64,000 nt of DNA from Vitis vinifera (taxonomy: Eukaryota; Streptophyta; Magnoliopsida; Vitales; Vitaceae), in assembly GCF_030704535.1 (NCBI RefSeq), contig NC_081822.1:506001-570000 (forward strand), written 5' to 3'. Below are positions 2,062 to 60,891 of the stretch, in pieces. Within the stretch, counting starts at the first letter, position 1; every line of letters starts with the position of its first letter. The position numbers and the translations under genes were made by a program. The notes beneath the pieces are model-generated. The model was not told where the DNA came from. It worked only from the letters and a program-made list of their open reading frames with translations, and did no database searches.

Positions 2062-3587
2062 TTTATTTAACTTATTTTTTCCAGATATAAAAGTTTTTAA
2101 TTAATTTTAATTATATTTTATTTTATTTTTCACATAAACTAAATATGAAAAAAAAAAATATTTTTTATTTTTTCTTCTATTATTATTTATTACCTTTTGA
2201 AAACCAAACATAATTTAAATGAATAAGATCAAGCTAATTAAATAAATCATAAAAAATATAATAAAATATTCAATCTCCAACTAAAAATCTATAAAATTTG
2301 GCCACATCATAAAATAGTGAATGTGATATGAATCTAGTTAGAATGGGTAGCCAAAAAGAAGATATGGGATCTTCAAAATGTTAAACAAGTCAACAACCAA
2401 GATTATCATTGACAACTTACAATTGTAACTGTTTTTGAAAATAATTTTGAAAGATAGTTTTTGATAATAATTTTTTAAAATTGTTATATGATTTTTATAG
2501 AACAAAAGTATATTTGAAAACCTAAAATATTTTTAACCTATTTTTAAATATGTTTTAAAAATAATTTTTATATCTAATGTTTTATTTTTAATTATTCTAT
2601 ATGTTTGTATAATTATTTCTTAAAATATTTCTAAAAAATCTAATAAAAACAATAGAAGACAATTAAAAGATATTACCTAAAAATATAATATTTTATAATC
2701 TTAAAAACAGAAAATAAAAATAGTTTTTGATTATCAAACTTTATTTCTGTTTTTTTTATTCTGGAGAAAAGAAATTTGTTATAAAAAACAGTTCTCAAAT
2801 GGTCCATATTCGTGCTAGATAGCTGAATTAATGGGGTACTGTAAGTTCTAGGCTTGGTGACTGGCAGACCCAGCCCAGACCAAGCAAGCCTAAACATGCT
2901 CCCGTCCCAGCGGCCCAGCCCATACGGCCTGACCCATTTATTTATTTTTTATTATTATTTGGGTTTGGTACCACAATCAATGTCAGTGGATAGAGTCAGA
3001 GATGGCGACTTTTGTTTTAAGACGTTTGAGTCTTTGTGTGATTAGCTCACCCATGACGCCATTGATTCATCACACCACGTCGGCGTGTAGTTGACCGACT
3101 TGTTTTTTAGCTTCAAACTTTAATTTACGTGCTGGATAAATATATTGTACCCGTTTTATTTCATGCCAAGATTTTGATAATGGTACCAACTATTAAGATG
3201 GAAATGCAATTTTTAAAAACATAAGATTAATCCATGCTTTTTATACAAGACAAAGAGTTAGCATGTGTAGAAGTACCTTTTTTTTTTTTTTTTTTTAATT
3301 TTTAAAAACAAAAATATAAAATATATATATTCAAATAAGCGTCGAGAGTCTATTTAGTAATAGTTTTGAAAAAGCATTTTAAATGTTTAAAAGAAGCACA
3401 ATATATAGATTTGAAATACTTCTATCTGTGGTCAGTGGTTCTAGAAGGGTGCCGCTAGGGTTACAGTTTAGAATCAACCAGATTATCACGACGTTTAAAA
3501 TTCTGCGTCATGGCCTACATCCATTATATGAATAAAAGGGGTTGAAGCGGTGGGGAGGAGGAAGAGAAGCCGTGGGTTGATTTGATA

Positions 3588-6120: not shown

Positions 6121-6919
6121 AAATAATTGACAGAAGGCCTTCTGGCTTAGGCAATATCGATGATTCCCAACTATTCTTGCCTAGGAATTCCCCTTTACAT
6201 TGCAGTTCTGGATCATAGATACTAGTAGTACTGTTCTGTTGTTTATCTTATTGCCCACTTGATATTATATAAAAATTGTAACCTTGGAAAGGAGGTGAAG
6301 ATGGTGGATTTTGATGGTTTGGACCTTTGCTTTTGCTTGCCAGGCTTATCATATCTTGTCTCGTTCAATGCTTACATCAATTGCTTGTGAAGAAGATGGA
6401 ATATAATTGGCTAGTAGGCACAACTTGCAGGATTTCCCTTGGCTCTTTTGTGGAAGCCACTGATGTAGAACTATTTGTTGGATTAGACTACATGATTAAG
6501 GAATCCAAAACCGATATACCCCTTTTATTCCGATAGAGAAGCATTCATCATAATGATTTGACGCTACCCAACACCAAATGAATAGGTAAAAACCCAATTT
6601 ATCCTTTGTTGAACGAAGTGATGACTGATGAGAAGGGTATTCATATCTAAACCAAAACAAGAAAAAATATCTGCTTGTTTGAGAATGAAAGAGTTGTCAT
6701 TCTCCTGGTATAAATGAGGTCCCCCATTTTTCCTTGACATCAGAGTGGGCAGGGGGGACACATTATCTATCAACCAGCTCATCCAAAATACAGATGAGAA
6801 AACCCCAAAGTAAGGGAAACATGGTCCTTAATAACTCCATATCTGTTTTCATTTTATTAGGTTAGAATTTAGGGTTATTTTATTAAAAGGGTTTTTGAAA
6901 ACTCAAATTTTGAAATTTA

Positions 6920-8521
6920 GGGTTTGTTTGGTTGTTGTTTTTAAAAACAGTTTTTGAGAATAGTTTTTGGTATTTTCAGACACACAATTGTGTTTGGGAA
7001 CTTGATTCTGGAAAACGGTTTTTGTTTTTAGAAAAAAAAAAAAACAAAAACATGTTTGGTTGAGTTAATAAAAAAAGTTTTTTCAGAACAAGTAAAATAA
7101 AAAACATATTTTTTTCTTCAATTAACTTGATATCGTGAGCATATAAATAATTTTCAAATTCACATTTTATTAAAATTAAAAAATTATTCTCAAATTTATT
7201 TACACCAATTATAATTTTTGTTAACTTTTAGTAGATAAATATGAACATGGAATATGATATAGATAAATAAGGTAAAAAATTAATAAAATAAAAAATAATT
7301 CAAATATAAATATATTTTTTTATACCATTTAAAAATAATTATTGATTTCCTAATGCAATTTAAAATATTATAAGATAAAAAAATTACATAAAATAATAAA
7401 TTAAAAATGATTCAAATGTAAATATAATTTATTTACCATATAAACACATGTCAGAAGATCAACATATAAATGTATCTTATACAAATCATGGTATTATTTA
7501 TTAAATATGATATTGCATATAAATTACCAAATATTAAATTTGATGTTGCATATAAATTATAAAATTTACAAGTTTTTTTTTATAATGTATAAATTATCAA
7601 TTACTAAATATTAATTTACCAAATATTAAATCTGATGCTACATATAAATTACCAAATATAATTTTACCAAATATTAAATTTGATGTTGCATTATAAATTA
7701 TAAAATTACAAGTTTACCAAATATGATTCTCCCTATTCCAACAACCACTAGTAAATCCCTAAACCCAAAGGTTTCTTTCAAATCCCAATCATAGTCGAGG
7801 GTCATCGAAGCTGGAGAAAGAATGTCTAGTCCCAGTGTCGGCGACGATGAGTCACCATCCACTAGCATTGAAGCTCTTATGGTTCGTCAATTGTAGTGAG
7901 GTAAGGGAGGAGCCCTTATCCCCTAATCTCTCATCTTAATAGACTTCCAAGGAGGTAACAATTGTGTTAAACGGGAGAAATTAGGATTTGAGAATCTCAT
8001 AATCGAATTCATCGTACTTAACATCGGACTTGGCACGGTCAGTGTCAAGGCGGGTAGGACTCGACCGAATCGTACCGGACTAGGCCGATATTTTGAATCC
8101 TATCACCACTGTTTTCCACCCTGCTGCCAAGCACTGTCGCTCACGGCATTTCCACCTGTAGCCTTGCCCTTCAAAGCAAAAGCACGGTCGTCAACGCCTT
8201 TCACACCCAAAACCATTCACTCACGCCAAGACCACCATAGTCAACCAACATGATTGTCATCTTCATTCTCCGTGACCTTCATTTCTTGCTGTTGAAAGAG
8301 AAACCACGTGTAGGGAAACACAAAAAACAGGAGAAGAAAACACGAAAAACAACTCTTCCTTTAATAGTGAAAAAAATAATCAAAACAACTTTTCTTTGTT
8401 CTCTTAAAAGAGGCTTTTCAACAACATGGAAAACACCAAAAACAAAAATCACCCCCTTTCCCAAACATGTTTTCAGTGTTTTTTTATTTTCCATAATAGA
8501 AAACAGGAACCAAACAGACCC
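6920..8521. mobile_element. Non-autonomous PIF/Harbinger-like DNA element
   Basis: The left end GGGTTTGTTTGGTTGTTGTTTT (6920-) and the reverse complement of the right end (about 8500-8521, ending CCAAACAGACCC) match at about 18 of 22 positions, giving terminal inverted repeats. Both ends are flanked by TTA (6917-6919 and 8522-8524), the 3-bp target duplication typical of PIF/Harbinger/Tourist elements. I see no transposase. The interior is AT-rich to about 7730 and includes diverged repeats of a unit with AAATATTAAATTTGATGTTGCAT (7500-7700). A distinctly less AT-rich stretch (7740-8280) may be captured host DNA. Confidence 0.65.
7490..7700. repeat. Short diverged direct repeats inside the TIR element
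   Basis: Several copies of a 35-65-bp unit resembling accaaatattaaatttgatg followed by ttgcatataaatta, some extended with ataaaattacaag, are arranged head to tail with substitutions and small indels. Confidence 0.7.
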
Positions 8522-8894
8522 TTAACTTGTTACATTTTTTTTACTTCATTTAAACAAAAATATTTTTATTATTTTCTTGTAAAAATTACTTTTTTAAAAA
8601 AAAAACCTACATATAAATGCTTAGAATAAAAACTGATATTTAATTCAAAAATAATTACTTTTCTTAAAAAAAATATAAAAATTATTAAATTCACAATTTA
8701 AAAATTATCTCATCGTTTCTAACAAAATATTTTTAGAATATTAAGTGGTTATTTTATTGTTGCTCGGCAATTTTTATGAGCATGACCTGGAACTTTGACT
8801 CTTCTGATGAGAAAGTGACAAGTAGACTAGCATATATGGCACCACCACTGATCAAAGCCCCAAGCCAACTGGTTCTTGTGCGTTTCTGAGAAAG

Positions 8895-11136
8895 ATGGAA
8901 GGGAAGGCAGAGAAGGAGAGAGTGTGCGTGACTGGTGCAGGAGGGTATATAGCTTCGTGGGTCGTCAAGTTTCTCCTCTCAAAGGGTTATATTGTTCATG
9001 GAACGGTCAGAGACCCAAGTAATATCCTCTGTTCTCCCTTTCATTTCTGTACTTTTTTTTTTTTTTTTTTTTGGAAAATAAGTCTTTACCATCATTTTTA
9101 TTACTTCGGAGCTCTTCCTATTTTGATTACATATTCTATTGGCCAAAAACTGTGTAGTTTTTCTGAAAATTTTCCTTCTATTCCTATTAAAACTCTCTTT
9201 TCAGGTGATGAAAAGAACAGCCATCTAAAGAAATTGGAGAAGGCTTTGGAAAATCTTCAACTTTTTAAGACAGATTTGCTGGACTATGAAGGCCTTTGCG
9301 CTGCCTTTGCTGGATGCTCTGGGGTTTTCCATGTTGCCAGCCCAGTCCCTATTGGCCCAATATCTAACCCTGAGGTAAGATCTATGGATACAAGACAAAA
9401 GAAAAAACTCTAGTTTCTCCTTGGAATATGCAATTCTCATTGTTTCATACTCTCTTTAATTATCTGCCTTTAATTTGTTGCATGATCTCCATGTTAACTT
9501 CTTCAATTTTACATTTCTCATTGTTTATTCATTCATTCATTTATTTGCTTCCCCAATTCACCAAGTCAACCATAATTCAATTTCCTTTGTTCATTTGTTT
9601 ATATGGGGTCTTATGTGTTAAAGAATTTTACCCAGGTGGAACTGATTGAACCAGCTGTAGTGGGCACGCGTAATGTCTTAAGCGCATGTGAGAAGGCCAA
9701 AGTGAAGAAAGTTGTGGTTGTTTCATCCGCTGGTGCTGTCGCCATGACCCCCAACAGGCCTAAGGATCGGCCCATGGACGAAGAATGTTGGTCTGACCTT
9801 GAATATTGCAAGGCAACTCAGGTAACCATTCACATGAAACTTTTGCTTCTGTTATTGAAATTGTGCTCTCTCTTCTTTTATTCAATACAATGCATAAATA
9901 AACTTAATTTTACAAATGTTGTATGTTTATTTATATATTTTTCTTCAAGGATTTTGTGGTAAAGTTGATATTACAATATGAATGGCAGAATTATTATTGC
10001 CTTGCCAAAACAATAGCAGAGAGTGAAGCCCTGGAGCATACAAAGAAAAGCGAGCTCAACATTGTAACAGTTTGTCCATCCTTTGTATTCGGGCCAATGC
10101 TGCAATCCACAATGAATGGCAGCTGCTTGCTTCTCCTATCATTTATGAAAGGTTCTTTTTCATACTAAATCCATCTCTTTTAGGCATACGCTACTTGTTC
10201 TGTAACTTAAGAATAGAAAAAGACCGATGCTATTGGCCGATGGGGCTTGATCCAACGCCCAAGATGCAGATGGTATTGGCCCAACTACACAGTTTATATC
10301 TATGTTGTGGGAAAAATCCCAGGGGGATGTAGTGCAAACAAAAATTGAGAACATTGCATTGAGGTAGGCTAGTGGATGGAAACGGATAGATGTTTATGAT
10401 CTGCTATGGAAATTGGGTCTTGGGATAACCATCTCTGTCAAAGTTGGTGAGATTGTTTAACTTTGTTGCCCCAGAGCTGGTCATCATGGCTGTTGAGTCT
10501 CGTGTTAGTCTTGTAGCAGAGTCGGAGTTTGAGTCTGTATCCCTTGTAGAGTGTTTTGACCATTCAGTATCTTTTTCTACTCATGGATGTGCATCGACCA
10601 TTACAGTGACTTGACCTTTTGCTTGAGCATGTATTTGTGTCCTGTGCTAGGCATATGTTAGACTTTCAATAAACATCTTATTTTTGGTAACTCTTCTATT
10701 TATTTTCCTTGGTTTCGATTTTCAGATGGTGGCGAATCAGTGAAAAATATTGTTTATCCTGTTGTTGATGTGCGCGATGTGGCTGAATCAATTCTGCTGG
10801 CATATGAGAACCCTAATGCAGTGGGAAGATACATATGCTCAGCACACTCAATCCAAGCTCAAGCTTTAGCAGAGAAGTTGAAGGGCATGTATCCCAACTA
10901 CAACTACCCTAAAAGGTAAGTTCAACTCCATTTGACTAAGGCCTTACCTTAGAATCATGAAAAATACTAGTGAGAAAAATGGTGTCTGTACTTGCAGTTA
11001 CATTGAAGATGAGAAGGATGTTGAGTTAAGTTCAGAGAAGTTGCAGAGGCTGGGGTGGAAGTATAGGCCGTTGGAAGAGACACTTGTGGATGCAGTTAGA
11101 AACTATGAAGAGAATGGCTTCTTGGTTGAACACTAG
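8895..11136 (+). CDS. CCR-like NADP-dependent reductase, array gene B
   Basis: Second intact member of the array and a different subtype from A and C. Six coding exons: 8895-9018, 9205-9374, 9636-9821, 9989-10151, 10726-10915, 10998-11136 (972 nt, 323 aa). The middle exons have the same sizes and phases as gene A (170, 186, 163, 190 nt), showing common descent. Motifs: TGAGGYIA at residues 13-20, R39-x5-K45, serine region VVVVSSAGA, and catalytic Y163/K167 in NYYCLAK. Where CCRs carry a substrate-binding His before the helix ending ILKYL, this protein has Leu, and the following Lys is Ser, so a different substrate is likely. Intron 2 has a normal GT donor. Intron 1 (9019-9204, 186 nt) has no in-frame stop and is a multiple of three, so retention would insert 62 residues. 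Confidence 0.92.
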
Positions 11137-13335
11137 TCCGTATCCCAGAGGGTGGGTGCTGCTGAAGCATTTTCAGAACCATGTCCACATTTGGTGGTTG
11201 CTCTGCATTTTTAATCTCTGTCACAATTCAATGAAAGACTTTGTATTCTAAAAGCAGTTGTTGATCGTGAACTTTTTAGAAGAAGAAGAAACAATGGTGC
11301 TTAAAGAATAAGCATCGGTTAAATTTGTGTCAACACAAAATATTGAGAATGCTCATTGAATAGGAGATCTCTGGTTGAATCTTTATATCAATATTGATTT
11401 GATATTTAATCTTGGAAATGGGAACGATTTGTGTGGAGAATTGGTAGAGGAGTTGTCATTAAACAAAATTTTGTTCCTACCAGTGAAAACTACTTTAAAA
11501 AACGATATCCTACAGACTTTTATGCTCTTCTATATTGTATCGATAACACTTTAGTTTTCAAACAAATTTATACTTCTCAGCTTAAGAAAAATAACAAATT
11601 TAGACTTCTCAAACCTAAAGAAAAAATAATATTACAATTACATGGACCTAGTTTTGCTTTTGTTTTGATTCTTTTTACTTGCTTAAAACATTTTGAAGGC
11701 CTTCTCTTCTGCGTTTTTCTTTTGAACCACAAAAAAATAAAAAAAATAAAAAGGAAAAACCCTAGTTTGAATGTGGTATGTTTAACTCGAACAGTGCAAC
11801 ACTATAAATGTGGTTTAGAATTAGAGTTGTAACTTGGGCGGGTTGGTCGAGTTGATGCCTAACCTAAGCTTAACCCAAATTAATAAATAATCAACCCAAC
11901 TCGATCCAACCTGACCTTTAACTCGAGATACTTAACTCAAGTTTGACCCAATCTTATTTTTCTAAATTTGGATTGGTCGGGTTAGACTCGAGTTAGTGAG
12001 ATTGATTGGGTTGCATGATTTAAAATCCAATTATAGTGGTTTTTTTTTTATATGTTTAATATATATATATAAATTTAAATAGTAAATAAGATAAAATTTC
12101 AAAATAATAATAATAAAAAAAAAAAAACTTATATATTTTTCTATTTTTGTTTAAATATATGATATAATTATAATTTAATATTTTTCTTTAAAACACTAAA
12201 AAATGAATATTATTATATATGATATAAATATTATAAAAGCATTAAATCATTTCATGTTAGGTTTGGTTGTTCAAACATTGAATTGAGTTAAATCCAAATT
12301 AAAAATGTTTGTTAAAACTGGCTCAAACATCGGGGTTGGTTCAAGTTAGATTGGACCAACCCGTCCAAGTTGCACCCCTACCTAGAACAAGTATTGAGTT
12401 CCCTTGTACCAAAAATTTAGCCATTGACTTCAACTTAGGTGCACGTCGGAAGGGTGACCCTTTTGTTTTTCCCCATCCATTTATGCAGTATTGTTAAAAG
12501 TGTAGGTAACTTGAAAAACATTCCAAGAACAAAAACAATTCTTCATATGATAATTAATAAAAATATTTATTTTGTTACCATCTAATATATGTTAAAAACA
12601 AAATGTTTGAAAACTTTTGCAGGTAAGTATAGGATGCTTTAAATGTCTTTCATATTTAAATTTTCTAAGAAATTTTCTTCTTAAACTCTTTTGAGAATTA
12701 TTATCAAATTTTGTTTGAGAATTTGGACATTAAAAAAAAATCGTTTTTTTTCCGTTAATTCTCTATATAAATTAGGAACTGGTACATAAACGAGAAGTTG
12801 AGTATTATTCATATTATTTTTAATTGTTTTTTGTGATAATAAAAAAGCACCTTGAGTTTATCTTGATTTAATTTTTTTTAATAAAATAATTTTTATGATA
12901 CAATTTTCAAACAACCATAATAATTTATTATGAAAACATTTGAATCGATAAGGATGATGATGATAATGGGGAGAGAATGATAACCATATCCATTGAAGGG
13001 AGATAAATGACAACCATATCCATTCATTAAACATGATTAAAATATAAATGAAAGGCATCTGGTCGGTATAAAATCAAAATTTAATATATTTAAATAAAAA
13101 TAATTAGAATTTCATATATATTTTAAGATAAAAATAGTAATATAAACAGTAGCTTTGGCTCTCGACCTGGTGTCCTGGACATGGATTCTAGAAGAGAGTC
13201 GGCTATGGCTGTATGCTTAAACCAGCTTGTCATTGTATTTCAAATTTTGCGGCATATAGCCCACGTCGCCATCACAGGAAGAAAAGGGATTGGAGAGGTG
13301 AGAAGGAGGAAGAGAAGGTGTGGAGTGATTTGATA
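11137..13335. other. Spacer between duplicated blocks, with a hAT-like MITE
   Basis: 3' flank of gene B, then sequence shared with the region after D: the block around 11650-11800 matches about 21660-21790, and 12400-12500 matches 21830-21930. The shared sequence is interrupted by a hAT-like element at 11822-12380. Homology fades by about 12550, and about 13170-13335 is the upstream region of gene C. An open frame at 11431-11832 has no recognisable motif and runs into the element; I do not call it a gene. Confidence 0.7.
11822..12380. mobile_element. hAT-like MITE with paralogous empty site
   Basis: The left end reads TAGAGTTGTAACTTGGGCGG and the reverse complement of the right end reads TAGGGGTGCAACTTGGACGG, followed by GTTGGTC on both: imperfect terminal inverted repeats of about 27 bp. 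The 8 bases on each side (tttagaat and cctagaac) share TAGAA in register, consistent with an 8-bp hAT target duplication. The duplicate block after gene D has an uninterrupted version of this site near 21795-21825. No transposase. Confidence 0.72.
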
Positions 13336-16300
13336 ATGGCGGAGAAGGGCAAAGTGTGTGTAACAGGCGCAGGAGGGTACGTTGCTTCATGGGTCGTCAA
13401 GCTTCTTCTCTCCAAGGGCTACATCGTCCATGGAACCGTTAGAGAACCCAGTAACCTTCTCTTTTTTTCAGTCTTGTTCTTTGTTTTGATATTCTGGGAA
13501 AATCGATATTGTTAATCTAATTCTTTTGGTTTGTCTCTTCTGGGTAATATTCGTGTCAGTTGATTCGGGCGGTATTTAGATCATTTGATGAGCTACTTGT
13601 GATGTGCTTTTGAATCTGGTCTCATTGTTCTTCCATCTCTGGGAAATTTCTAGTTTTCTATTTGCAATTGTGAAGTTGTTTCTACTCTTTATGATTATGA
13701 CTATTTTGGCTTTATTCCAGAATTCCCCCATCAGTTGTTTGACTAAATGTCACGTGGGTATGTGTGCGCCAACCATAGAGATTGGTGAAAATAAGACAAC
13801 CCCTTTTCCTGGATTAGTAGCTGAAGTACTATGAATTAATCCCACCTTTTTCTTGGATATCAACCTATCTCATCGTGGACCACAAGTTGGCCTACAGATG
13901 GTCAGAGCTTCATCCCGAATCCTACTAAAAGGCCCACTAGAGATCAGAGATTGTCAAGAAACAACATTCCTGAAAAAAATAAAAATCCATTCTTTGATTT
14001 ATTCATATATTCCATGACCAGAAACAGAGGGCTACACGTTATACATTTTGCAAAGAAATAGCACATTCGTTTCTCAAGAAGAGATGGGATGCTCAATATT
14101 ATTTGATTGAATAGTTGACCCAGCTCCTTGTTTGAAGAAACCCTTTGCTTCAATTGGTATGCTTTTATGAAAAGAAGAGGTGAGGTAACAAATCCAGTGT
14201 TTCACTGAGATTAAGATGTCGAATAACTGTCCAGAATTCAAGTTGATTATGTTTCACCTCTTACTTGTTAATATAATAGGACAACCCATTTACCCTTTAT
14301 TACTTTGCCACCTTTTTCTGTAGATCACTGCATTAATGTGATAAGTCAACTTGTATGCTGTTGGCACTTGGGTTCTGATGAAGTTTTTATTCATTGAAGA
14401 AGAATTCAAACTATATCAGGCCCTGAGATCCGAAATTTAACCTCATAGGTTGTAAATTGCAATTGTATTGTATGGATCAATGTACAAGTGTTGGACTTTC
14501 CCTTGTGTCTAGGTGTGAGGTTCATTTATTCACCAGAACTTAGGACATAATAGGGGTGGCAATTGGGTCGAGTCACGTCAAGGAAAAAAATCATAAAATT
14601 TATTCAACTTGAACACAACCTGTGGTAACATGACATGACCTGTGTAACCTATTTAATGAAGGTTGAATTGAGTTGACTTTAACTTGAACACAATTATGAT
14701 CCACTAACATGATTATGACTCGTTTAACTCATAGAAGACTTTAAATTTACATGAATTGTAATTTAGCTTAACCTGAACGTAACCTGTTGTAACATGAAAT
14801 GACCTATGTAACCTATTTAATGAATAAGCTTAATTAAGTTGGGTTGGGGTATATTAAATTAACATAAACAAACATGAAGCACCCCCTTGAGCCTTATATT
14901 GTTAGATTGACGGCTTGTATGCAAGTCAAGGAGGTTGGTTAGAAAGACCTCACAAGTATGGTCAACGACAATTGAAGGAGCGTTAAATTGAACTTTGATA
15001 GATGTGGAAACTTGGAATTGGTGATCTAATTAGAGATCATCGAGGTTAAGTAATTACAACATACTCTAAACTTGCAAGTGATGGTTTTACTATTGAGGCT
15101 GAGGTTGTAGCACTTTGGGCTTGTCTAATTTATGGTGGAAGGGGATTTTGTTGTTATCTCATGGTTGGCTAAAAAGGAAAGAGGTTCATGGAGACTTTAT
15201 AGGCGGCTGCACCAAATATTCAATGTCTTTATAGAGTTAGGATACTCCATTCGATGGGTTCCTCACTTAACTAATCAGTTGGCAGCTGGGTTAGCCAAAA
15301 GAGGAGCAAAGCAATTGGTATCTTTTGTTGTAGATTATGTGCCTCCTTTGAGTTTATCAAATGTTTGTTTTGAATGTTGTTTTGCGACTTGTTTAAATCA
15401 TTGAAGACTTTAAATTGGCATGAATTGTAAATTAACTTATTTTTCAAAATGATTTATTGAAAATATAATATAATATGATCAGTATAATTTATGAATAGGA
15501 GTCTTATTAAAAAAATCTTAAAATCTATAACTATGTGAATAGGTGAGTCATACATGGATCAAATCATAATCGTGTCAAGACATTATGATAGATTAAATGT
15601 GTCAAAATGGGTTAAGTGGGTCAACAAAGACACAATTAAGCTTAACCCAAACCTGTTAATTTCGTATCATTTTTGAGACAATTTTCTGGGTCATGTCAAA
15701 AGTTGTCTTCCCTAACACAATTCAATAGCCTGATCATCATTTTAACTTACCCATTTTATTTCTTAGGTGAAATTAAGGTTTATTACTAACATTGAGTGCC
15801 TGACATGGGTACTTCGCTCGTGTCCATTCAACAAGTGATCAGATTCTGAGTGTCTGAGGTTCATTAGTTAGTTGTTATTTGATTGTCTTGTTTTACATGC
15901 CTCTTGCTACATGCCTGATCAACCAATAGGCATGTCAAAAGGCAGGTCAAAACATATACTCAAAACTTTGTTGTTTTACATTTAAAAACAGATGCTTCAC
16001 ATACTTAGAACATGTCCTTATAATATAACTTGCATCATACTAGACTTATATACAATCACACCAAGAATAAAACAACTCATTTGAAACACTTTGGAAAATA
16101 TAACTAGGTGATTCAATTCCTATAGGACAACCAGATGCACCATAATGATATGAAGATAGAACAAATCTTATATTTGAAAAAGATATGTTCCTGTCAAGAA
16201 GATTTTTATTTGTTAGTTCAAAACCCTTTAAAGGGATTCTCGTAAATTTGGTGAAAATATCTTGCAGGTGATGGAAAGTACTCTCATTTGAAGAAACTTG

Positions 16301-18079
16301 AGAAGGCATCTGGGAACCTGAAACTCTTTAAGGCAGACTTGCTGGAGTACAACACGCTTTGTTCTGCCATTGCAGGATGCGATGGAGTGTTTCATGTCGC
16401 CAGTCCCGTCCCCCCTACCACTGTAGTACCAAATCCTGAGGCAAGCATACTTCACTCTGAAACTTGTTCAATGGAATTACTTACTCATAGTGATTTCATT
16501 CTCTGTGAAACTTGTACAATACACAACGCTCAATTTGTACATGGTACATCCGCACCCAAGAGTTGATGGCATTTTCCAATGGGTCCCATCCAAGATAATT
16601 CTTTAAGAAAATAACCAATGCAATTGAAGAATGCTGACCTTATATGGTTGCTATAAGTCCACTACGTATGCATACACTTAATTCTTTCATTTTGCTTTCA
16701 TTTTCAAATAGTGCTTTTGCAGGTAGAACTAATGGAGCCTGCTGTGAAGGGCACACTTAATGTACTGAAGGCATGTACTGAAGCAAAAGTTAAACGGGTT
16801 GTTGTTGTGTCCTCTGGATCTGCTGTCATGAGGAATCCTAGGTGGCCCAAGGGTAAAGTGAAGGATGAGACTTGCTGGTCTGACAAAGAATATTGCCGAA
16901 CAACTGAGGTAGCCAACTGAAAATTACTTAATAAGCAATTTGAAAGCACTGCTTCTGCAAAAGGTTTCTACATTGACACTGGGTGTCTCTGCCAGAATTG
17001 GTATTGTCTTTCTAAAACAGAAGCAGAAACCGAGGCCTTTGAGTATGCCAAAAAAAGTGGGCTTGATGTTGTGAGAGTTTGCCCTACCCTCGTTCTAGGG
17101 CCAATCCTGCAGTCCACAATCAATGCAAGTAGTTTGGTCCTCATTAAACTTTTGAAAGGTAACACTACTTGTACTTTACCTAATGTACTAATGATGGACC
17201 TAGTAAAGCAAGGGTATTCCAAAGTTTATGTAAAAATATTTTTTAGACTCTATGTTGTTGTCACATGAAAGTTAAGACAGATGGGATGTAGCATGAATGC
17301 AAAATTCCCAGTAAATATCCCCTAATTTAGGAACTGTCCACTTCTCTGGGGTATTCTGATTTCTGTTTGAGGGAGACTTGTCTGTGCCACTCTTTTGATA
17401 AGTAAATTTTTCACGGTTTCAACTCTTATTAAGGTTACAACACATTCTGGTATAGGCTTTTCCTCTTAAACATGGTTCATTGAAGCTATTGCTTTCTCAT
17501 TTGTGAATGGTATTACCTCTCATCTGAGCATGCAGAAGGATATGAGTCACTGGAAAACAAGCATCGTATGATAGTAGACGCACGTGATGTAGCTGAAGCT
17601 CTGCTTCTTGCTTATGAGCAGCCCGAAGCTGAAGGAAGATACATATGCACAGCACACATGATCAAGATGCAGGATTTGGTGGAGAATTTAAGGAGCATTT
17701 ACCCCTATTACAATTATCCAAAGAAGTTAGTTTCTTATCCCATCATGATTTTGTTTGCCCTTTTTTCAGTGGTGGTGATTGGGCATTGAAAAGATGTTTA
17801 CTACCATCCTATTCCAAATTTTAGTTCTGTATCTCACCCATGTGGAATACCTTAACTATTACTCAGATTCCCTTGATAAGTATCTTAAAATGTGTTGTCC
17901 TCCTTTTTAAGCAGGACACTCATTTAGGTTGATTTTGTGTTGGCAGTTTTACAGAGGGAGAGGAAACAGAGAACCTGAGCTCAGAGAAACTGCAGAGATT
18001 GGGATGGAATTACAGGCCACTGGAAGAAACCCTAGTTGACTCGATCAAAAGCTACAAAGAGGCTGGCATCTTGGATTAA
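13336..18079 (+). CDS. CCR-like NADP-dependent reductase, array gene C
   Basis: Duplicate of gene A. Coding exons: 13336-13450, 16268-16440, 16723-16908, 16996-17158, 17536-17725, 17947-18079 (960 nt, 319 aa, one residue longer than A within exon 2). Motifs: TGAGGYVA at residues 10-17, R36-x5-K42, VVVVSSG in exon 3, and catalytic Y161/K165 in NWYCLSK. Compared with A it differs mainly in exon 2 (EPSDGKYSH instead of DPSDEKNAH) and exon 3. Intron 2 has the same GC donor as gene A (GAG|GCAAGC, position 16441). Intron 1 is 2,817 nt against 549 in A because of inserted repeats including an RNase H-like coding remnant; its two ends still align with A. No frame or splice lesion is visible, so probably functional. 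Substrate unknown. Confidence 0.9.
14551..15714. mobile_element. Possible degenerate hAT-like element (nested)
   Basis: Begins TAGGGGTGGCAATTGGGTCG, a typical hAT-like terminus, and ends ...CAAAAGTTGTCTTCCCTA, whose reverse complement TAGGGAAGACAACT matches about 10 of the first 14 bases. No clear 8-bp target duplication was found (ggacataa versus acacaatt). Inside are imperfect direct repeats: about 45 bp at 14618-14663 and 14780-14824, and about 40 bp at 14721-14760 and 15391-15432. The sequence between about 14880 and 15390 breaks this pattern and looks like a nested insertion. Confidence 0.4.
15069..15404 (+). pseudogene. RNase H-like fragment (retroelement remnant)
   Basis: The frame from 15132 to 15404 encodes [11 protein letters not shown] followed later by [20 protein letters not shown]. 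This is the layout of the plant RNase H-like domain (RVT_3 type) found at the end of LINE-derived reverse transcriptases: an E-G-D strand and a terminal N-x-x-A-x-x-L-A-K helix. Upstream, the expected preceding segment ([14 protein letters not shown]) is in a different frame, so there is at least one frameshift, and no reverse transcriptase is present. It sits inside intron 1 of gene C in the sense direction and is dead. Confidence 0.65.
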
Positions 18080-18852
18080 CTGACAGTATCCTGTTTGGTT
18101 CAGGCAATTATGATGATTCCCAAGTATTCCTGCCTAGGATTCCCCTTGATATTGCAGTTCTGGATCATAGATACCACTATTCTGCTGTGTATCTTATTGA
18201 TATTATGACTCTTTTTTTAAAGTGAAATTGATATTCTGACTGTAAGTCACTGATGTTGCACTATTTGTTGAATCAGACTACATGGTTATGGAATCCAAAC
18301 CCAATTTAGCCCTTTTATCCCAAAAGCTAGGTATTTATGGGACTGATATGGGTTCGTCTTTCTACCCTACACTACTTAAATTTCAGTTTAGCTTAAACTT
18401 CGTAAAAACCAAATTTATTTTTTGTTAAACAAGATGATGAGAAGTGCACTCATATGGAAGGAAAAAAATCTGCTTGGTTGAAGTAGAATAGTTGCCGTCC
18501 TCAGAAATGAGGTCCCCTTTTGCCTTGATATCAGAGGGGACAGGGACACATCATGAATCAACAGCCTATCTAGCATATGGATGAAAAAAACCCAATGATA
18601 CCAATCCAAACAGGTAAAAAAATAGTCATTTTAGCTTAAGAGCTCCATGCTTTGTTTTTATTTGGTTTTGTCATTTGTGTGCCCATTCAGTTAGAATCGC
18701 GTGCCTCATTTTCTTCCTTGGCTGCTATTTTTCATGAGCATGACATGGAATTTCGACTCTTCTGCTGAGAAAGTGCAAACGACACTAGTTTATATGACAC
18801 AGCCACTGATCAAATCTCAAAGCCAACTGGGTTTTGTGTGCTTCTGAGGAAG
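18080..18852. other. Spacer between reductase C and pseudogene D
   Basis: 3'UTR/flank of C followed by the promoter region of D. Both halves align with the A-B spacer, but this copy lacks the 1.8-kb insertion seen there, so it is closer to the ancestral spacer. No gene seen. Confidence 0.75.
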
Positions 18853-20968
18853 ATGGAAGAGAATGGAGAGAAGGAAAGAGTGTGTGTGACTGGTGCAGGA
18901 GGCTATTCATGGCTCATAAATTTACCCTATTGAAACAGTCAGAGACCCATGTAAGATCCTCTGTTTTCCCCCTCATTTCTGTTTTTTTTAAATATCTTCC
19001 CAACAATTTTATCACTTCAGAGCGATTCCTATTTTGATTACTGATTTTATTGGCAAAAAATGTGCAGTTTTTTCTGAAAATCTTCCTTCTATTCCCATTG
19101 AAACTCTCTTTTCAGGTGATGCAAAGAACAGCCGTCTGAAGAAATTGAGAAGGCTTCTGAGAATCTTCAACTGTTTAAGACAGATTTGCTGGACTATGAA
19201 GGCCTTTGTGCTGCCTTTGCTGGATGCTCTGGGGTTTTCCATGTTGTCAGTCCAGTCCCCATTGGCCCAGTATCTAACCTTCTGATAAGATTTATGAATA
19301 CAAGATAAAAGAAAAGATTCTAGTTTCTCCTTGGAAACAACAATGTGAATTGTTTCATACTCCCTTAAATTATCTTCTATTTATTTCCTTGACATAATTT
19401 TACTTTTCCCATTGTTCATTCATTCATTCATTTATTTATTTCCCCAAATCACTAAATCAACCATCATTCAGTTTCCATTCTTTATTTTTCCTATGGGGTC
19501 TTATGTGTTGCAGAATTTTACCCACTTTGAACTGATTGAACCAGATATAACAGGCACACATAATCTCCCGAAGGAATGTGAGAGGGCCAAAGTGAAGAAA
19601 GTTGTGGTCTGTCATCTGCTGGTGCTGTCACGCTCAACCCAAGTTCCCAACTGGCCTAAAAGTCTGCCCATGGATGAAGAATGTTGGTCTGACCTTGAAT
19701 TTTGCAAGGCAACCAAGGTAACCATTCACATGTACCAACTCCGTTCACAATATATCATATTTGTTGCTTCTGTTTTTGAAATTGTACCCTCTTATTTTTC
19801 ATTCAATACAACACATAAATGCACTTAATTTTACAAATAACGTATGTTTATTCACATTTTTTTCTTCAAGTATGTTGTGTTAAAGTTAATATTACACTAA
19901 GCGACTATTTGGTATGAACTGCAGAATTATTGTTACCTTGCAAAACAATAGCAGACAGTCAATCATTGGAGGATGCAAAGAAAAGCGAGCTCAACATTGC
20001 AACAGTTTGTCCATCCTTTGTTTTCGGGCCAATGTTGCAATCCACAATGAATGGCTGCAGCCTAACATTTATGAAAGGTTCTTTCTCAAACTAATGCCAT
20101 CTCTTTTAGGCATCCGCTACTTGTCATAACCTGATCACAGTTATGTCATATAAACAACTGGACTTGTTCTTGGGAAAATCTGGTGCATGTATCTTCCTCT
20201 CTTCCTATAAACTCACATTACTTGAAAATCTAGGAATAGTCTGTAAAGTCAATCATTTTTGTTCTGTAACTTTAGAAGAAAAAAGGGTGATGGGACTTGA
20301 TCCAACGTGGACGAGGCAGATGCTATTGGCCCAACAGGACAGTTTATGCCCATTTTTTGGCCTTCATTTATTTCAGTAAGCTATGTTCACATACATTTGT
20401 GTCTGTTTAATACCTAGCGGGGGTGTACTACAAACAAAATCAAAACATTGCAATGAGGCAGGCTAATGGATGGATCGTTGTCTATGATCTGTTATGGAAA
20501 TTGAGTCCTGGGATAGCTATCTGAACATCTTATTGTTGGTAGCTTCTCTATTTGTTTTCTTTGGTTTCTATATACAGATGGTAGTGAACCTTTTGTTGAT
20601 GTGTGCAGTGTGCGATGTGGCTGAAGTGATTCTGTTGGCATACAAGAACCCTGATGCAGTAGGAAGATATATATGCTAATCACACTCAGTCCAAGCACAA
20701 GCTTTGGCAGAGAAGTTGAAGAGTATGTATCCTAACAACAATTCCCCAAAAGGTAAGGTCAATTCCATTTGACTAAAAGCCTTCCCTTAGAATCATGAAG
20801 GATACTAGTGAGAAAATGGTGTCTGTGCTTGCAGTTACATTGAAGATGAGGTAAATTAAGTTCAAAGAAGTTGCAGTGGCTGGGATGGAAGTGTTAGGCC
20901 ACTGAAAGTGACTATTATGGCTGCAGCTAGAAACTATCAAGAGAATGGCTTCTTGGCTGAACAACTAG
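18853..20968 (+). pseudogene. CCR-like reductase pseudogene, array gene D
   Basis: Duplicate of gene B with all six exons recognisable but broken many times. Exon 1 keeps the start and TGAGGY, then a deletion removes the rest of the nucleotide-binding fold and brings a stop into frame before 18935. Exon 2 has a one-base deletion (AAATTG-AGAAGG near 19145), and its donor GT is now AT (CTGATAAG near 19283). Exon 3 is shifted at the catalytic serine strand (near 19605). Exon 4 lost one base in the active-site motif (CTTGCAAAACAATAG, near 19940), which directly creates a stop. Exon 5 has a TAA stop (GCTAATCAC near 20676). Exon 6 has a deletion giving another stop (near 20853). No functional protein is possible. 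Confidence 0.93.
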
Positions 20969-54337: not shown

Positions 54338-54342
54338 ATTTT

Positions 54343-55252
54343 TGTTATAAAACAAAATTCTTTTTACAGTTTATACTCTAAACAAACATTAAATAAGCAT
54401 GTAAATAAATAAACGAAATTACAGAACTCACTGTGAATCCGAGCCCAGTGACAACACTGTTTCCTTAAGACAATTTTATTCCCTCTCTGGTGCTCAAAGG
54501 TAGTGAATAAATGTCTCCCAAGATAGAACGGATTTCCAGTTCCACAGAAGCAGCACTTCAATCTGTAGAACACCACGAACACAACTTGTGTTTTGCACTC
54601 GAACCGAAACGAAAAACCAACAAAGGATGGATGCAAAGAAGAGAAAAATAAAATGCAGGAGATGTTTTTTTGATGTCGGGGTAGAAAGTTTATTTTTATA
54701 GGCTTCAGGCTTTCTGGTGTCTAAACAGAATAGTCGCGTCCTTAATTATGAAAAGCCAGTTACAAAACGGGTTGGGTCTAACCCAGAAACTTTGAATGAT
54801 TTTTGCCCCAAAAGATTATATAAGCCCAAGCCCAAGCCCAGGTCCGGGTCGGGGCGGGCGGGCGCGCGCGTGTGGGTTTAACCCACAAGCCTACACCCAT
54901 GTAGGTTCTCCCCCCTTTACAAACTTGGGGTGCCCCTTGGGGCCCTTCCCATAGTGGAAAAAATCAATATATAAACTCTTCACATTCTACTCACACTTTC
55001 TATGTGGGACAAAGTGTTTATGGTAAGTTTATACCAAGTTTCCTCAAATATACCATTTGAAGTGGGTGACTTTGGAGTCAATTTTCTCATTCAATACTTA
55101 ATGGATTTGAACAAATAAATATACCACGTTACACTCCTCACGGAGGAGAATGCGTTGGTGCGTGGTCCCGACATTTTCGGAGTGTGGGTCACACTTTTAA
55201 TTAAGCCCCAAGTTGCTCAATTATTTTTTTTTTTTCAAACTCATTTCCAACA
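54343..55252 (-). repeat. 3' LTR of the Copia element
   Basis: 910 bp, TG...CA. Compared with the other LTR it has a longer GC block (gggcgggcgggcgcgcgcg near 54850) and an extra copy of the CCCAAG repeat, and lacks a 4-base AAGA insertion. Confidence 0.96.
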
Positions 55253-55262
55253 ATCCCCCACA
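55253..55262 (-). other. Polypurine tract
   Basis: On the element's sense strand GTGGGGGAT immediately precedes the 3' LTR (TGTTGG). This is the expected place and composition of the plus-strand primer in Copia elements. Confidence 0.85.
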
Positions 55263-55847: not shown

Positions 55848-58800
55848 TTATTTCATAGGCTTTAGACCCATTCCCTTTGATGAACTTTCTACTTGCTCTC
55901 TAGTTAAACCTTTTGTAAGCGGATCCGCAATATTATCTTTTGACCTTACGTAGTCAATTGAGATAATTCCATTTGAGAGCAATTGCCTAATGGTATTATG
56001 TCGACGTCGTATGTGACGTGACTTACCGTTATAGTTATGACTCTGTGCTCTTCCAATTGCTGATTGGCTATCACAATGGATGCAAATAGCAGGCACAGGT
56101 TTTGACCAATTTGGAATATCCTCTAAGAAATTTCGTAGCCATTCAGCTTCTTCTCCAGCTTTATCTATTGCAATGAATTCTGATTCCATTGTAGATCGAG
56201 CTATACAAGTTTGTTTTGAGGATTTCCAAGACACGGCTGCACCTCCAAGTGTAAACACATATCCACTTGTGGATTTTGAGTCTTTTGAGTCAGATATCCA
56301 ATTAGCATCGCTGTATCCTTCAAGTACAGCTGGATATCTTGTGAAATGCAGTCCATAATTTTGAGTATATTTAAGGTATCCCAAAACTTGTATTATTGAC
56401 TTCCAATGATTTTCTTCGGGATTACTCATAAATCGACTTAGCTTACTAACGGAGTATGCTATATCAGGTCGAGTGCAGTTCATCACATACATTAGACTGC
56501 CAATTATACGAGAATATTCTAATTGAGATTTTCCTATGCCAGTATTCTTAAAAAGATGAAGATTTACATCCACAGGTGTCTTCTTTGGTCTTATATCGTA
56601 CTTCTTGAATTTCTCAAGTATTTTCTCAATGTAATGAGATTGAGAAAGTATAAGACCATCAGAAGTTTTTGAGACCTTAATTCCCAAAATTATATCTGCC
56701 ACACCTAGATCTTTCATATCAAATCTACTGGATAGCATTTGTTTAGTCATTTTTATCACATTGGTATCACTACCAATAATTAACATGTCATCAACATATA
56801 GACATACAATGACATATCCTTTTTGAGTGTTTTTGACATAAACGCATTTATCACATTCATTAATTTTGAATCCATTTGATATCATTGCATTGTCAAATTT
56901 CTCATGCCATTGTTTAGGTGCTTGCTTTAATCCATATAAGGATTTAACAAACTTACACACTTTCCCCTCTTGTCCAGGAGCTATAAACCCTTCAGGTTGA
57001 TCCATATATATTTCTTCATCTAATTCACCGTTCAAAAATGCCGTTTTAACATCCATTTGATGTATTTCAAGATTGTTTATTGCTGCTATAGAAATTAACA
57101 TACGAATAGAAGTTATTCGGCTAACTGGTGAATAAGTGTCAAAATAATCCAATCCTTCCCTTTGCTTGTACCCTTTGGCAACAAGTCTTGCTTTGTATTT
57201 ATCAATTGAACCATTTGCCTTCATTTTCTTTTTGAAAATCCACTTACATCCCAATGTTTTGGTACCTGGTGGAAGATCCACTAGTTCCCAAGTATGGTTT
57301 TGCAGAATAGATTCAATTTCACTATTAATTGCTTCTTTCCAATATGAAGCTTCAGGAGAGGACATAGCTTCTTTGAACGTTTGAGGATCATTTTCTAACA
57401 AATATGTTAGAAAATCTGGGCCAAACGAAGTTGACTTTCTTGCCCTTTTTCCACGTCTAAGATCTTTGTCAACTTGTTTTTCTTTTGATTCTTGATTTAC
57501 TTCTAATTGATTATTACCAAAAGTAATATCATGAGTCCTCTTTTGTGTACTTGTTTCAGATGGCTTGTTATATGGAAAAATAGTTTCAAAGAATGCAGCA
57601 TTTCTTGATTCTATAATTGTATTAACATGCACATCAGGAATCTCGGACTTATAAACAAGAAAACGATATGCACTACTATTATTAGCGTAACCAATGAATA
57701 TACAATCAATGGTTTTAGGTCCTATTTTAACCTTTTTAGGTTTATGAACCTCCACCTTTGCCAAACACCCCCACACTTTTAGATATTTATAGCAAGGCTT
57801 GTGACCTTTCCATAATTCATAAGGTGTTTTAAGTGTTTTCTTATGAGGCATTTTGTTAAGAATATAATTGGCGGAAAGCAAAGCTTCCCCCCACAAATTC
57901 TGGGGTAAACCAGAACTTAACAACATAGCATTCATCATTTCTTTCAATGTTCTATTTTTGCGTTCAGCAATCCCATTAGATTGAGGAGAATATGGAGCGG
58001 TAGTTTGGTGAATGATTCCATGTTCTAAACAGAACTCCTCGAAAGGGGATTCATATTCACCACCTCTATCACTTCTTATTGCCTTAATCTTTTTGCTAAG
58101 TTGATTCTCAACTTCAATTTTATAATGTTTAAACATTTCAATTGCCTCATCTTTGCTTTTTAGCAAATATACATAACAGTATCTAGTGCAATCATCGATA
58201 AAAGTAATAAAATACTTTTTCCCACCTCTCGTTTGCACAAACTTTAAATCACAAATATCACTGTGAATTAAGTCTAGAGGTTCAGTACTTCTTTCAACTG
58301 AATGAAAAGGTACTTTTGTTAATTTAGATTCTACACAAGTTTCACATTTATGATTAGGATCAATATTAAATTTAGGTAGATAATCTAAGTGAATTAATCT
58401 ACGTAGAGTATTATAATTAACATGTCCTAATCTACCATGCCAAATATTAGAAGACTCAAGCAAGTAAGCAGAAGAATCAATCTTATTATTATTAATAGAC
58501 TTAGGAACAACAGTCATTACATTCATCTTAAAGAGTCCATCACTAAGATAACCCTTTCCTACAAACATCTCGTTCTTTGTAAGTACAAACTTATCAGACA
58601 CAAACACTAATTTGAAACCATTTTTGCTAAGCAAAGATCCAGAAACCAAGTTCTTGCGAATGTCTGGCACATGAAGCACATCATTTAAAGTGAGTTCTTT
58701 GCCAGAAGTCATTTTCAGAATCACCTTCCCACGGCCTTCAACTTTGGAACTAGAAGAGTTACCCATGAATAATTCTTCATTTTGCTCCACGAGTTTGTAA

Positions 58801-59780
58801 GTTGAAAACATCCACTTGTTGGAACATATGTGACGAGTAGCCCCAGTGTCCACCCACCATTCCTTGGTGTTTCCTACAATATTGCATTCGGATATAACAG
58901 CGGAAAGATTCATCTCGGAGACATCATTTGAAATTTTATCAAATTCTGTCACATTAGCTTGGGGTTTCTTTTCCTTCTTTGGCTTACGACAATCATTAGA
59001 CTTGTGACCAGTTTTGCCACAATTATAACATTTGCCTTTGAATTTCTTTGCCGCATTTGATCCTTGATTCTGATTTTGATCACCATGCTTTCGTTTCTTG
59101 TTAGTTTTTGGTCCTTGTTCAATAACATTGGCTTTAGCCTCCATTGAATTATTTCCCTTCTTTTCAGATTTTCGGTTGTCCTCCTCAATCCTTAGCCTCA
59201 CAATTAATTCTTCAAGATTCATCTCTTTGCGTTTGTGCTTGAGATAATTCTTGAAGTCCTTCCATAGTGGTGGTAATTTCTCAATCACAGCAGCCACTTG
59301 AAATGAGTCACTAAGACTCATTCCTTCAGAATGGATTTCATGAAGAATTACTTGCAGTTCTTGAACTTGACTTATAACTGTTTTGGAATCGATCATTTTG
59401 AAATCAAGAAATTTGCCGACTATGAATTTCTTCATGCCAGCATCCTCGGTTTTGTATTTCTTGTCAAGTGAATCCCATAGTTCCTTTGCTGTCTTGAGTG
59501 AACAATACACATTGTAAAGTGTATTGTCTAAGCCATTAAGCACATAATTTCTGCATAAGAAATCAGAATGCTTCCATGCATCCACGGCAGCAACCTTTTC
59601 CTTGTTGGTTTCTCCTTCTGTAAGTATGGGACATTCTTCATGAAGGAACCTTGCCAAGTTCAATGTGGTGAGGTAGAAGAGCATCTTTTGTTGCCAACGT
59701 TTGAACTCATTCCCATTGAATTTCTCTGGTTTTTCTCCATGAGTCAAATTCATTGTAGGAACATTGCTTGAAGATGCCAT
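55848..59780 (-). CDS. Copia gag-pol polyprotein
   Basis: 1,310 aa in one uninterrupted frame starting [10 protein letters not shown]. Gag (UBN2-like) occupies about residues 1-250 and ends in the zinc knuckle [14 protein letters not shown] (251-264). The protease active site is DTGA (311-314). Integrase has the HHCC zinc site (H448, H453, C479, C482) and the D508, D571, E606 triad with the standard 35-residue D-E spacing, followed by the GKxxP-like linker region. Reverse transcriptase (about 830-1070) contains YVDD (995-998); RNase H follows, with YSDANW and the E of STMESEF near 1145-1200. All catalytic residues I can check are present. Products would assemble virus-like particles, copy the RNA and integrate the cDNA. 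Open frames on the opposite strand are shadows. Confidence 0.97.
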
Positions 59781-59956
59781 TTGATTTCTGTTACAAAAAC
59801 AGAAATGCAGAAAATTCAGAATACAAAATTCTGATTAAAGAAAAAATAATAATAAATGAATAGAATATCTAAGTTTCTAAATGCAGAAACACAATCTGAT
59901 TTGAAACTTAAGAATATACTATTTACTGAAGTATAAACTACAAAAGGTTTTTATAT

Positions 59957-59975
59957 AATAAAATTGTCTTAAGAT
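59957..59975 (-). other. Primer-binding-site position with LTR self-complementarity
   Basis: On the sense strand the 5' LTR ends ...TATAACA, then AT, then CTTAAGACAATTTTATT (59973-59957). No TGG start (complement of a tRNA CCA end) and no TGGTATCAGAGC is present anywhere between the LTR and the polyprotein. The 17 bases are instead perfectly complementary to AATAAAATTGTCTTAAG at 60113-60097 inside the LTR. Confidence 0.8.
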
Positions 59976-60886
59976 TGTTATAAAACAAAATTCTTTTTAC
60001 AGTTTATACTCTAAACAAACATTAAATAAGCATGCAAATAAATAAACGAAATTACAGAACTCACTGTGAATCCGAGCCCAGTGACAACACTGTTTCCTTA
60101 AGACAATTTTATTCCCTCTCTAGTGCTCAAAGGTAGTGAATAAATGTCTCCCAAGATAGAACGGATTTCCAGTTCCACAGAAGCAGCACTTCAATCTGTA
60201 GAACACCACGAACACAACTTGTGGTTTGCACTCGAACCGAAACGAAAAACCGACAAAGGATGGATGCAAAGAAAGAAGAGAAAAATAAAATGCAGGAGAT
60301 GTTTTTTTGATGCCGGGGTAGAAAGTTTATTTTTATAAGCTTCAGGCTTTCTGGTGTCTAAACAGAATAGTCGCGTCCTTAATTATGAAAAGCCAGTTAC
60401 AAAACGGGTTGGGTCTAACCCAGAAACTTTGAATGATTTTTGCCCCAAAAGATTATATATACAGTAAGCCCAAGCCCAGGTCCGGGTCGGGGCGGGCGCG
60501 CGCGTGTGGGTTTAACCCACAAGCCTACACCCATGTAGGTCCTCCTCCCTTTACCAACTTGGGGTGCCCCTTGGGGCCCTTCCCATGGTGGAAAAAATCA
60601 ATATATAAACTCTTCACATTCTACTCACACTTTCTATGTGGGACAAAGTGTTTATGGTAAGTTTATACCAAGTTTCCTCAAATATACCATTTGAAGTGGG
60701 TGACTTTGAAGTCAATTTTCTCATTCAATACTTAATGGATTTGAACAAATAAATATACCACGTCACACTCCTCGCGGAGGAGAATGCGTTGGTGCGTGGT
60801 CCCGACATTTTCGGAGTGTGGGTCACACTTTTAATTAAGCCCCAAGTTGCTCAATTATTATTTTTTTTTCAAACTCATTTCCAACA
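59976..60886 (-). repeat. 5' LTR of the Copia element
   Basis: 911 bp. On the sense strand a TATA-like CTTATAAAAATAAA lies at about 60342-60329, so transcription probably starts near 60300 and R plus U5 would span roughly the last 320 bases. A GC-rich block (cccaggtccgggtcggggcg, near 60475-60495) lies upstream of it. Confidence 0.96.
60328..60342 (-). promoter_or_regulatory. TATA-like box in the 5' LTR
   Basis: Sense-strand GCTTATAAAAATAAA, the only good TATA match in a suitable part of the LTR. The other LTR has GCCTATAAAAATAAA. Inferred from sequence alone. Confidence 0.5.
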
Positions 60887-60891
60887 ATTTT

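Follow-up and report, generated by a model that had tools for sequence, protein, structure and literature searches.

Probable self-priming of reverse transcription in a Ty1/copia retrotransposon family of Vitis vinifera

Introduction

The passages of Neumann et al. (2019; PMC6317226) that deal with self-priming predict this mechanism for plant Ty1/copia retrotransposons of the TAR lineage and cite earlier proposals of the same kind for the Houba and Osr-1 families. They also give an operational test, namely a stretch of at least 10 nt that starts 0–5 bp past the 5′ long terminal repeat (LTR) and is complementary to the 5′ LTR. In Tf1, according to the relevant part of PMC7175516, the primer is formed by the first 11 bases of the element’s own RNA. 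Here we describe a complete minus-strand Copia element in a 64-kb stretch of Vitis vinifera contig NC_081822.1 (this whole stretch is referred to as the window), together with its relatives in the same genome. With respect to the operational test, the Vitis element has a 17-nt complement at an offset of 2. Judged from its sequence, it is a Ty1/copia LTR retrotransposon and very probably supplies the primer for its reverse transcription from its own RNA. This reading is strongly supported because the two complementary arms covary across relatives. The original prediction, made from the window alone, regarded self-priming as new for a plant Copia, which is incorrect in view of what the cited passages say on the TAR lineage. 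Hence, the kind is already known, and the Vitis family is one more member of it.

Results

A self-complementary site next to the 5′ LTR

The 911-bp 5′ LTR (TGTTGG...ATAACA; positions 60886–59976, minus strand) was delimited by LTR comparison. It is followed by the two-base spacer AT (59974–59975, minus strand), which would fit the removal of two bases by integrase, and then by the primer binding site (PBS) CTTAAGACAATTTTATT (59957–59973, minus strand). The PBS is the exact 17-nt complement of the self-primer segment AATAAAATTGTCTTAAG (60097–60113, minus strand) in the part of the 5′ LTR around the border of its repeat (R) and unique 5′ (U5) regions; both assignments draw on complementarity and covariation. 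The predicted cleavage point lies after the last G of the self-primer, before GA. The same 17-mer arm is repeated in the 3′ LTR at 54464–54480. No TGG occurs 0–5 nt past the 5′ LTR end at 59976, where the sequence reads ATCTTAAGACAATTTTATT, and no tRNA-Met site (TGGTATCAGAGC-like) occurs within the same range.

In 20,000 dinucleotide shuffles of the LTR, allowing offsets 0–5, the longest complement reached 14 nt (2 of 20,000), compared with the 17 nt observed. Of the 4076 start positions in the internal region, that of the PBS has the longest match to the LTR, and the next unrelated match is a 13-nt run of A and T only. A predicted fold of a 608-nt leader piece contains the arm helix, with modeled pair probabilities of 0.64–0.72. 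The coordinates and the shuffle test bear out what had been claimed from the window, i.e., an exact 17-nt complement two bases past the LTR that pairs 123 nt upstream; the claim that the 5′ LTR is followed by no tRNA primer site holds as well.

Arm groups among relatives in the genome

Relatives were searched in the source genome (495.6 Mb, 21 contigs). The search with leader DNA gave 11 matches, four of which span the LTR/leader junction, this element included. In the search with the reverse transcriptase (RT), 150 of 11,785 candidates were scored, and junction pieces were fetched for 40 hand-picked relatives out of the 150, which have RT identities of 52–78% and the first 20 of which were chosen in favor of long open frames. 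A self-complementary site was found in 31 of these 40. In 26, it was among the two best matches of a complementarity search anchored two bases past a CA, and group motifs added five (L058, L063, L065, L086, and L093). One relative (L071) has a tRNA-Met site. The 31 relatives and four junctions of the immediate family make a total of 35 junctions, which fall into five arm groups. The arms, given as primer/PBS, are AATAAAATTGTCTTAAG/CTTAAGACAATTTTATT in group A, the family of the window element, AATCTGTTTTAAG/CTTAAAACAGATT in group B, CAAAATTCTGTCTTTAG/CTAAAGACAGAATTTTG in group C, AATAGAGTCTTTG/CAAAGACTCTATT in group D, and TGGATCTATTTCAAG/CTTGAAATAGATCCA in group E. The group E copy L091 reads TGGATCTACTTTAAG/CTTAAAGTAGATCAA, in which both partners of two pairs have changed and pair 14, near the outer end, is mismatched.

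A pattern search allowing up to 3 mismatches yielded 110 matches versus 48 for the reversed control, and led to group F, with arms CAAATT(T/C)GTCTTAAG/CTTAAGAC(A/G)AATTT. This group was recognized at 11 of 15 places chosen from the pattern-search list by PBS likeness. Its T/C and A/G variants are matched in some copies and unmatched in others. At the other four places, L121–L123 (PBS-like sequence CTTAAAAATATTTTATT) and L124 (TTTTGGACAATTTTATT), a matching arm is absent, the best scores being 5–6 versus 7–14 for the 11 group F copies.

Covariation and fixed features of the helix

Over the 35 junctions, the arms of one element pair with each other at 12.34 of 13 positions on average, whereas arms swapped between groups pair at 6.52 (942 swaps, best 11). 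The covariation alignment comprises 33 of the 35 junctions with 13 pairs and 429 cells; in the other two the arms were on separate pieces, so these junctions were omitted. Pairing cells make up 94.9% of the 429, compared with 67.2% after shuffling. Changes on both sides occur in some sequence at 12 of the 13 pairs, and double changes account for 118 of the 429 cells. Covariation is scored at 0.697 versus 0.238 for shuffled alignments (standard deviation 0.021; none of 500 reaches 0.697), and helices slid out of register score 0.045–0.196. The cells count sequences rather than events, and as groups A–E are separate branches, the independent changes are few, yet they touch 12 of the 13 positions. 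Covariation of the two 17-mers had been named beforehand as a key check, and it was found, with matched arms specific to each group.

Several features stay fixed while the arms change. GA directly follows the primer in 34 of the 35 junctions and in all 11 group F copies. Across the 35 junctions tabulated, a dinucleotide (AT or TT) separates the PBS from a preceding CA, although this spacing is partly a search condition and the LTR ends of the relatives were inferred from the CA. In 31 of the 33 aligned junctions the helix starts with a G-C pair, and the loop between the arms measures 109–145 nt in the 35 junctions. Fixed spacing, first G-C pair, GA, and loop length are what is expected of a priming site whose 3′ end sets the LTR boundary.

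Other observations weigh against this reading. Eight of the 40 sampled relatives (L062, L072, L073, L076, L084, L087, L089, and L092) have neither type of site in the fetched pieces. The group A sister copies L015, L016, and L017 each carry one mismatch in one arm, and only 2 of the 11 group F copies pair without mismatch over 14 nt. The anchoring CA was a condition of the search and arms were placed by likeness to the group motif (at most 4 mismatches); hence, the spacing and pairing of decayed copies are partly imposed, and pairing is favored. An A/T-rich match ranked above the reported site in L056 and L074, and the complementarity search also returned chance matches elsewhere, e.g., one of 14 nt in L063. 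Two measures out of five are unexceptional against column shuffles, namely the number of pairs with a double change (12 vs. 10.4; 66 of 500) and the number of further pair types (14 vs. 17.7; 499 of 500). Complementarity by itself leaves cleavage and extension to inference, and strand transfer after an internal cut would require an RNA end, which here is a predicted one.

Controls and RT tree

The tRNA-Met site TGGTATCAGAGC occupies the PBS position in two controls, L105 and L003. The former is the upstream piece of element L071 of the same genome (53% RT identity), and the latter is a Copia deposited as a bacterial plasmid. Both have merely 4 nt of complement to their own upstream 700 nt. In a midpoint-rooted RT tree of 25 rows, L071, L072, L003, and L002 split with 100/99 support from a 21-row cluster holding groups A–E. 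Groups A, B, C, D, and E form separate well-supported branches, with some forks between them unsettled. The cluster also holds the contaminant L001, in which no usable LTR or PBS was found, as well as L062 and L084, likewise without a PBS found. With the RT piece as query, no relative was confirmed in viral contigs, and phages gave none.

A probable internal primer

A TATA box lies approximately 90–225 nt upstream of the primer in 21 of 27 junctions examined, the remainder being short pieces or having it at other positions. In the window element, it is TATAAAAATA (60328–60337, minus strand), with the transcription start predicted about 30 nt further on. The distance is 206–224 nt in group A (4 of 4), 214–223 nt in group B (2 of 5, the other three pieces being too short), 91–96 nt in group C (4 of 5), 107–113 nt in group D (7 of 7), and 213–227 nt in group E (4 of 6). 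As predicted from these positions, the primer probably lies about 60–195 nt inside the transcript and not at its 5′ terminus. An internal primer would mean that the primer molecule is the end of a longer 5′ fragment. The likeness to Tf1 that had been proposed therefore stands for the shared principle of self-priming and probably fails for the position, as Tf1 uses the RNA 5′ end and the TATA positions would place the primer of the Vitis element well inside.

A predicted leader intron in group A

The leader of the window element contains a predicted intron, GTGAGT ... TTTTTGTAACAG (59788–60064, minus strand). Both upstream ATGs and the entire PBS fall within its 277 nt. Its donor lies in U5 and reads GTGAGT in the window element and GTAAGT, a strong donor, in three sister copies, which have the same acceptor. 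In group A this acceptor is located seven bases before the gag ATG. The A+T content is 78% in the predicted intron versus 59% before it, and the 243 nt before it have no ATG, as do 50 of 2000 shuffles. Splicing, if it takes place as predicted, would remove the PBS. The intron is not general, since no more than about 12 nt separate the PBS from the ATG that was taken, by eye, for the gag start in the copies inspected from groups C, D, and E. For barley BARE, the part of PMC3735527 consulted describes separate RNA pools for translation and copying, brought about by other means.

A model of priming and its alternatives

In genomic RNA, the segment 60113–60097 near the R/U5 border pairs with the PBS that begins two bases downstream of the LTR, as complementarity and covariation show. 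Cleavage at the conserved point before GA, where the upstream arm ends, would free a 3′ end, which would stay annealed to the PBS and be extended through U5 to give minus-strand strong-stop DNA. The conservation of GA is only suggestive of an RNase H cut at the primer 3′ end. The two bases between LTR and PBS would be lost at integration. Plus-strand copying from the primer would rewrite the PBS as the complement of the primer, and such rewriting would help the arms to stay matched. A more specific version is conceivable but rather unlikely. It holds that self-priming differs from that of Tf1 in using the cut 3′ end of a 5′ leader fragment of about 80–210 nt, at a conserved internal site, and that group A additionally sorts its RNA by means of the intron. 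Splicing of the PBS-bearing leader intron would then separate translatable, uncopyable messages from unspliced genomes, and in the latter the splice donor would be enclosed by the primer:PBS helix, which would at once block splicing and prepare priming.

Three other explanations of the match were weighed. The pairing might mask a signal, either AATAAA in the 5′ R copy only or splicing at the nearby donor, the true primer being something else. The upstream arm of group A does begin with AATAAA (60108–60113, minus strand), a possible poly(A) signal made up of bases 1–6 of the primer segment; the donor GTGAGT sits in the helix loop; and as the PBS adjoins the 5′ LTR alone, only that poly(A) copy would be hidden. 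However, AATAAA is absent from the arms seen in groups B–F, so poly(A) masking was rejected as a general function. The copies from groups C, D, and E mentioned above retain the helix though they have no such leader intron, and masking gives no reason for a helix that starts two bases past the LTR. We consider masking, which had been put forward as the alternative to self-priming, very improbable; it loses weight, as an arm that overlaps a poly(A) signal was seen in the family of the window element only.

The chance that a tRNA fragment primes is slight. Such a primer could be a half tRNA cut in the anticodon loop, of the Bianca and Osser type, or could use an internal tRNA-Lys site as in fungal FunCo1 (ATTAAGAGTCT). 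The passages cited from PMC6317226 report priming by half tRNAs in other Copia lineages, and the FunCo1 site, as given in the section of PMC5445492 on it, shares TTAAGA with the PBS, though this overlap is 6 nt only. Moreover, the PBS varies by group yet fits the LTR of the same group. Exact 17-mer matches occur at nine genomic places, eight of which are in the family of the window element; the ninth has no LTR similarity and no tRNA by ARAGORN. Almost negligible is the chance that the match is a functionless relic of one aberrant copying event in a single copy. The immediate family gave just four junctions, three with one mismatch, as a relic would allow, but the same layout with different sequence recurs in five further groups, B–F, and covariation already refutes a single-copy relic. 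Self-priming thus remains by far the best-supported reading.

Structure of the element

The 3′ LTR, also delimited by LTR comparison, is 910 bp long (55252–54343, minus strand). A single open reading frame of 1310 amino acids (55848–59780, minus strand) encodes gag-pol. The LTR pair is 98.0% identical (888 matches, 18 mismatches, and 9 gap columns). The element is flanked by a perfect 5-bp target site duplication, ATTTT (left copy, 54338–54342; right copy, 60887–60891), and a polypurine tract recognized by eye, GTGGGGGAT (55253–55261, minus strand), adjoins the 3′ LTR. Domains in the frame are gag (residues 56–207), zinc knuckle (249–266), Pol_BBD (308–389), which we take to be the protease region, rve (500–599), and RVT_2 (828–1070). 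The order gag–protease–integrase–RT with an RVT_2-type RT is that of Ty1/copia. The domain search of the polyprotein gave no match to the RNase H family.

Additional observations

Several observations were made alongside. A ACAATCTTAAAAATATTTTATT-bearing repeat is identical at many places (37 listed in the pattern search, L121–L123 included), and three copies of it read without a self-complementary arm. In L066, L067, L068, and L069, the presumed LTR contains, upstream of the primer, up to two copies each of TCATCTTTGTAAC and its inverse GTTACAAAGATGA. Searches of plasmids and genome contigs found Copia DNA in bacterial records, probably by contamination: L003 and L004 (NZ_CP115302.1 and NZ_CP115454.1), L001, and L002 are filed under Streptomyces, Kitasatospora, Robertmurraya, and Labilibacter. 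L005 (NC_015657.1, Candidatus Protofrankia datiscae plasmid pFSYMDG02) is a 5448-bp circular, unannotated record. Its two long frames match RVT_2 reverse transcriptase and, at scores under the cut-off, a Ty capsid (TYA) and an integrase core (the latter only just under it), which makes the record a Ty1/copia element by content. Elsewhere in the window, the region 3500–20800 has several diverged direct repeats, 60–94% alike over 87–300 nt, which resemble a tandem gene family, and its open frames resemble, by eye, an NAD-dependent reductase.

Comparison with known systems

The Tf1/sushi group of Ty3/gypsy, with Tf1 and Tj1 of fission yeast and Tcn1 of plants, is like the Vitis element in that an upstream RNA segment of the same transcript pairs with an LTR-adjacent PBS. 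The two differ in superfamily, as the Vitis element is a copia, with arms of 13–17 nt that are predicted to lie about 60–195 nt from the transcript start. The cut of the paired RNA that gives the primer is shown for Tf1 and is proposed here for the Vitis element. As the primer of the latter is probably internal, its release may not follow the Tf1 model. Bianca, Osser, Bryco, and Gymco-II are likewise Copia elements without an ordinary tRNA 3′-end site, but their PBS fits half tRNAs according to the relevant passages of PMC6317226, whereas the PBS of each Vitis group fits its own LTR. Fungal GalEa Copia with the Conserved Hairpin Site also lack a tRNA PBS; the section of PMC5445492 on them describes a 9-bp palindrome at the LTR end, and its authors detected no U5 complement.

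The closest match is the TAR lineage, including Houba and Osr-1. These are plant Ty1/copia elements with no tRNA site and an LTR-complementary PBS, and no difference from the Vitis family was found in the passages of PMC6317226 compared. The Vitis family would be filed under TAR by the PBS criterion rather than by a tree. In these passages, self-priming of plant Copia rests on the 10-nt complementarity rule. Our analysis adds covariation, the conserved GA after the primer, a predicted internal primer, and, in group A, a predicted leader intron whose splicing would remove the PBS. With matched changes in five groups and a weaker sixth within one genome, the complementarity rule becomes strong evolutionary evidence together with an exact expected primer end.
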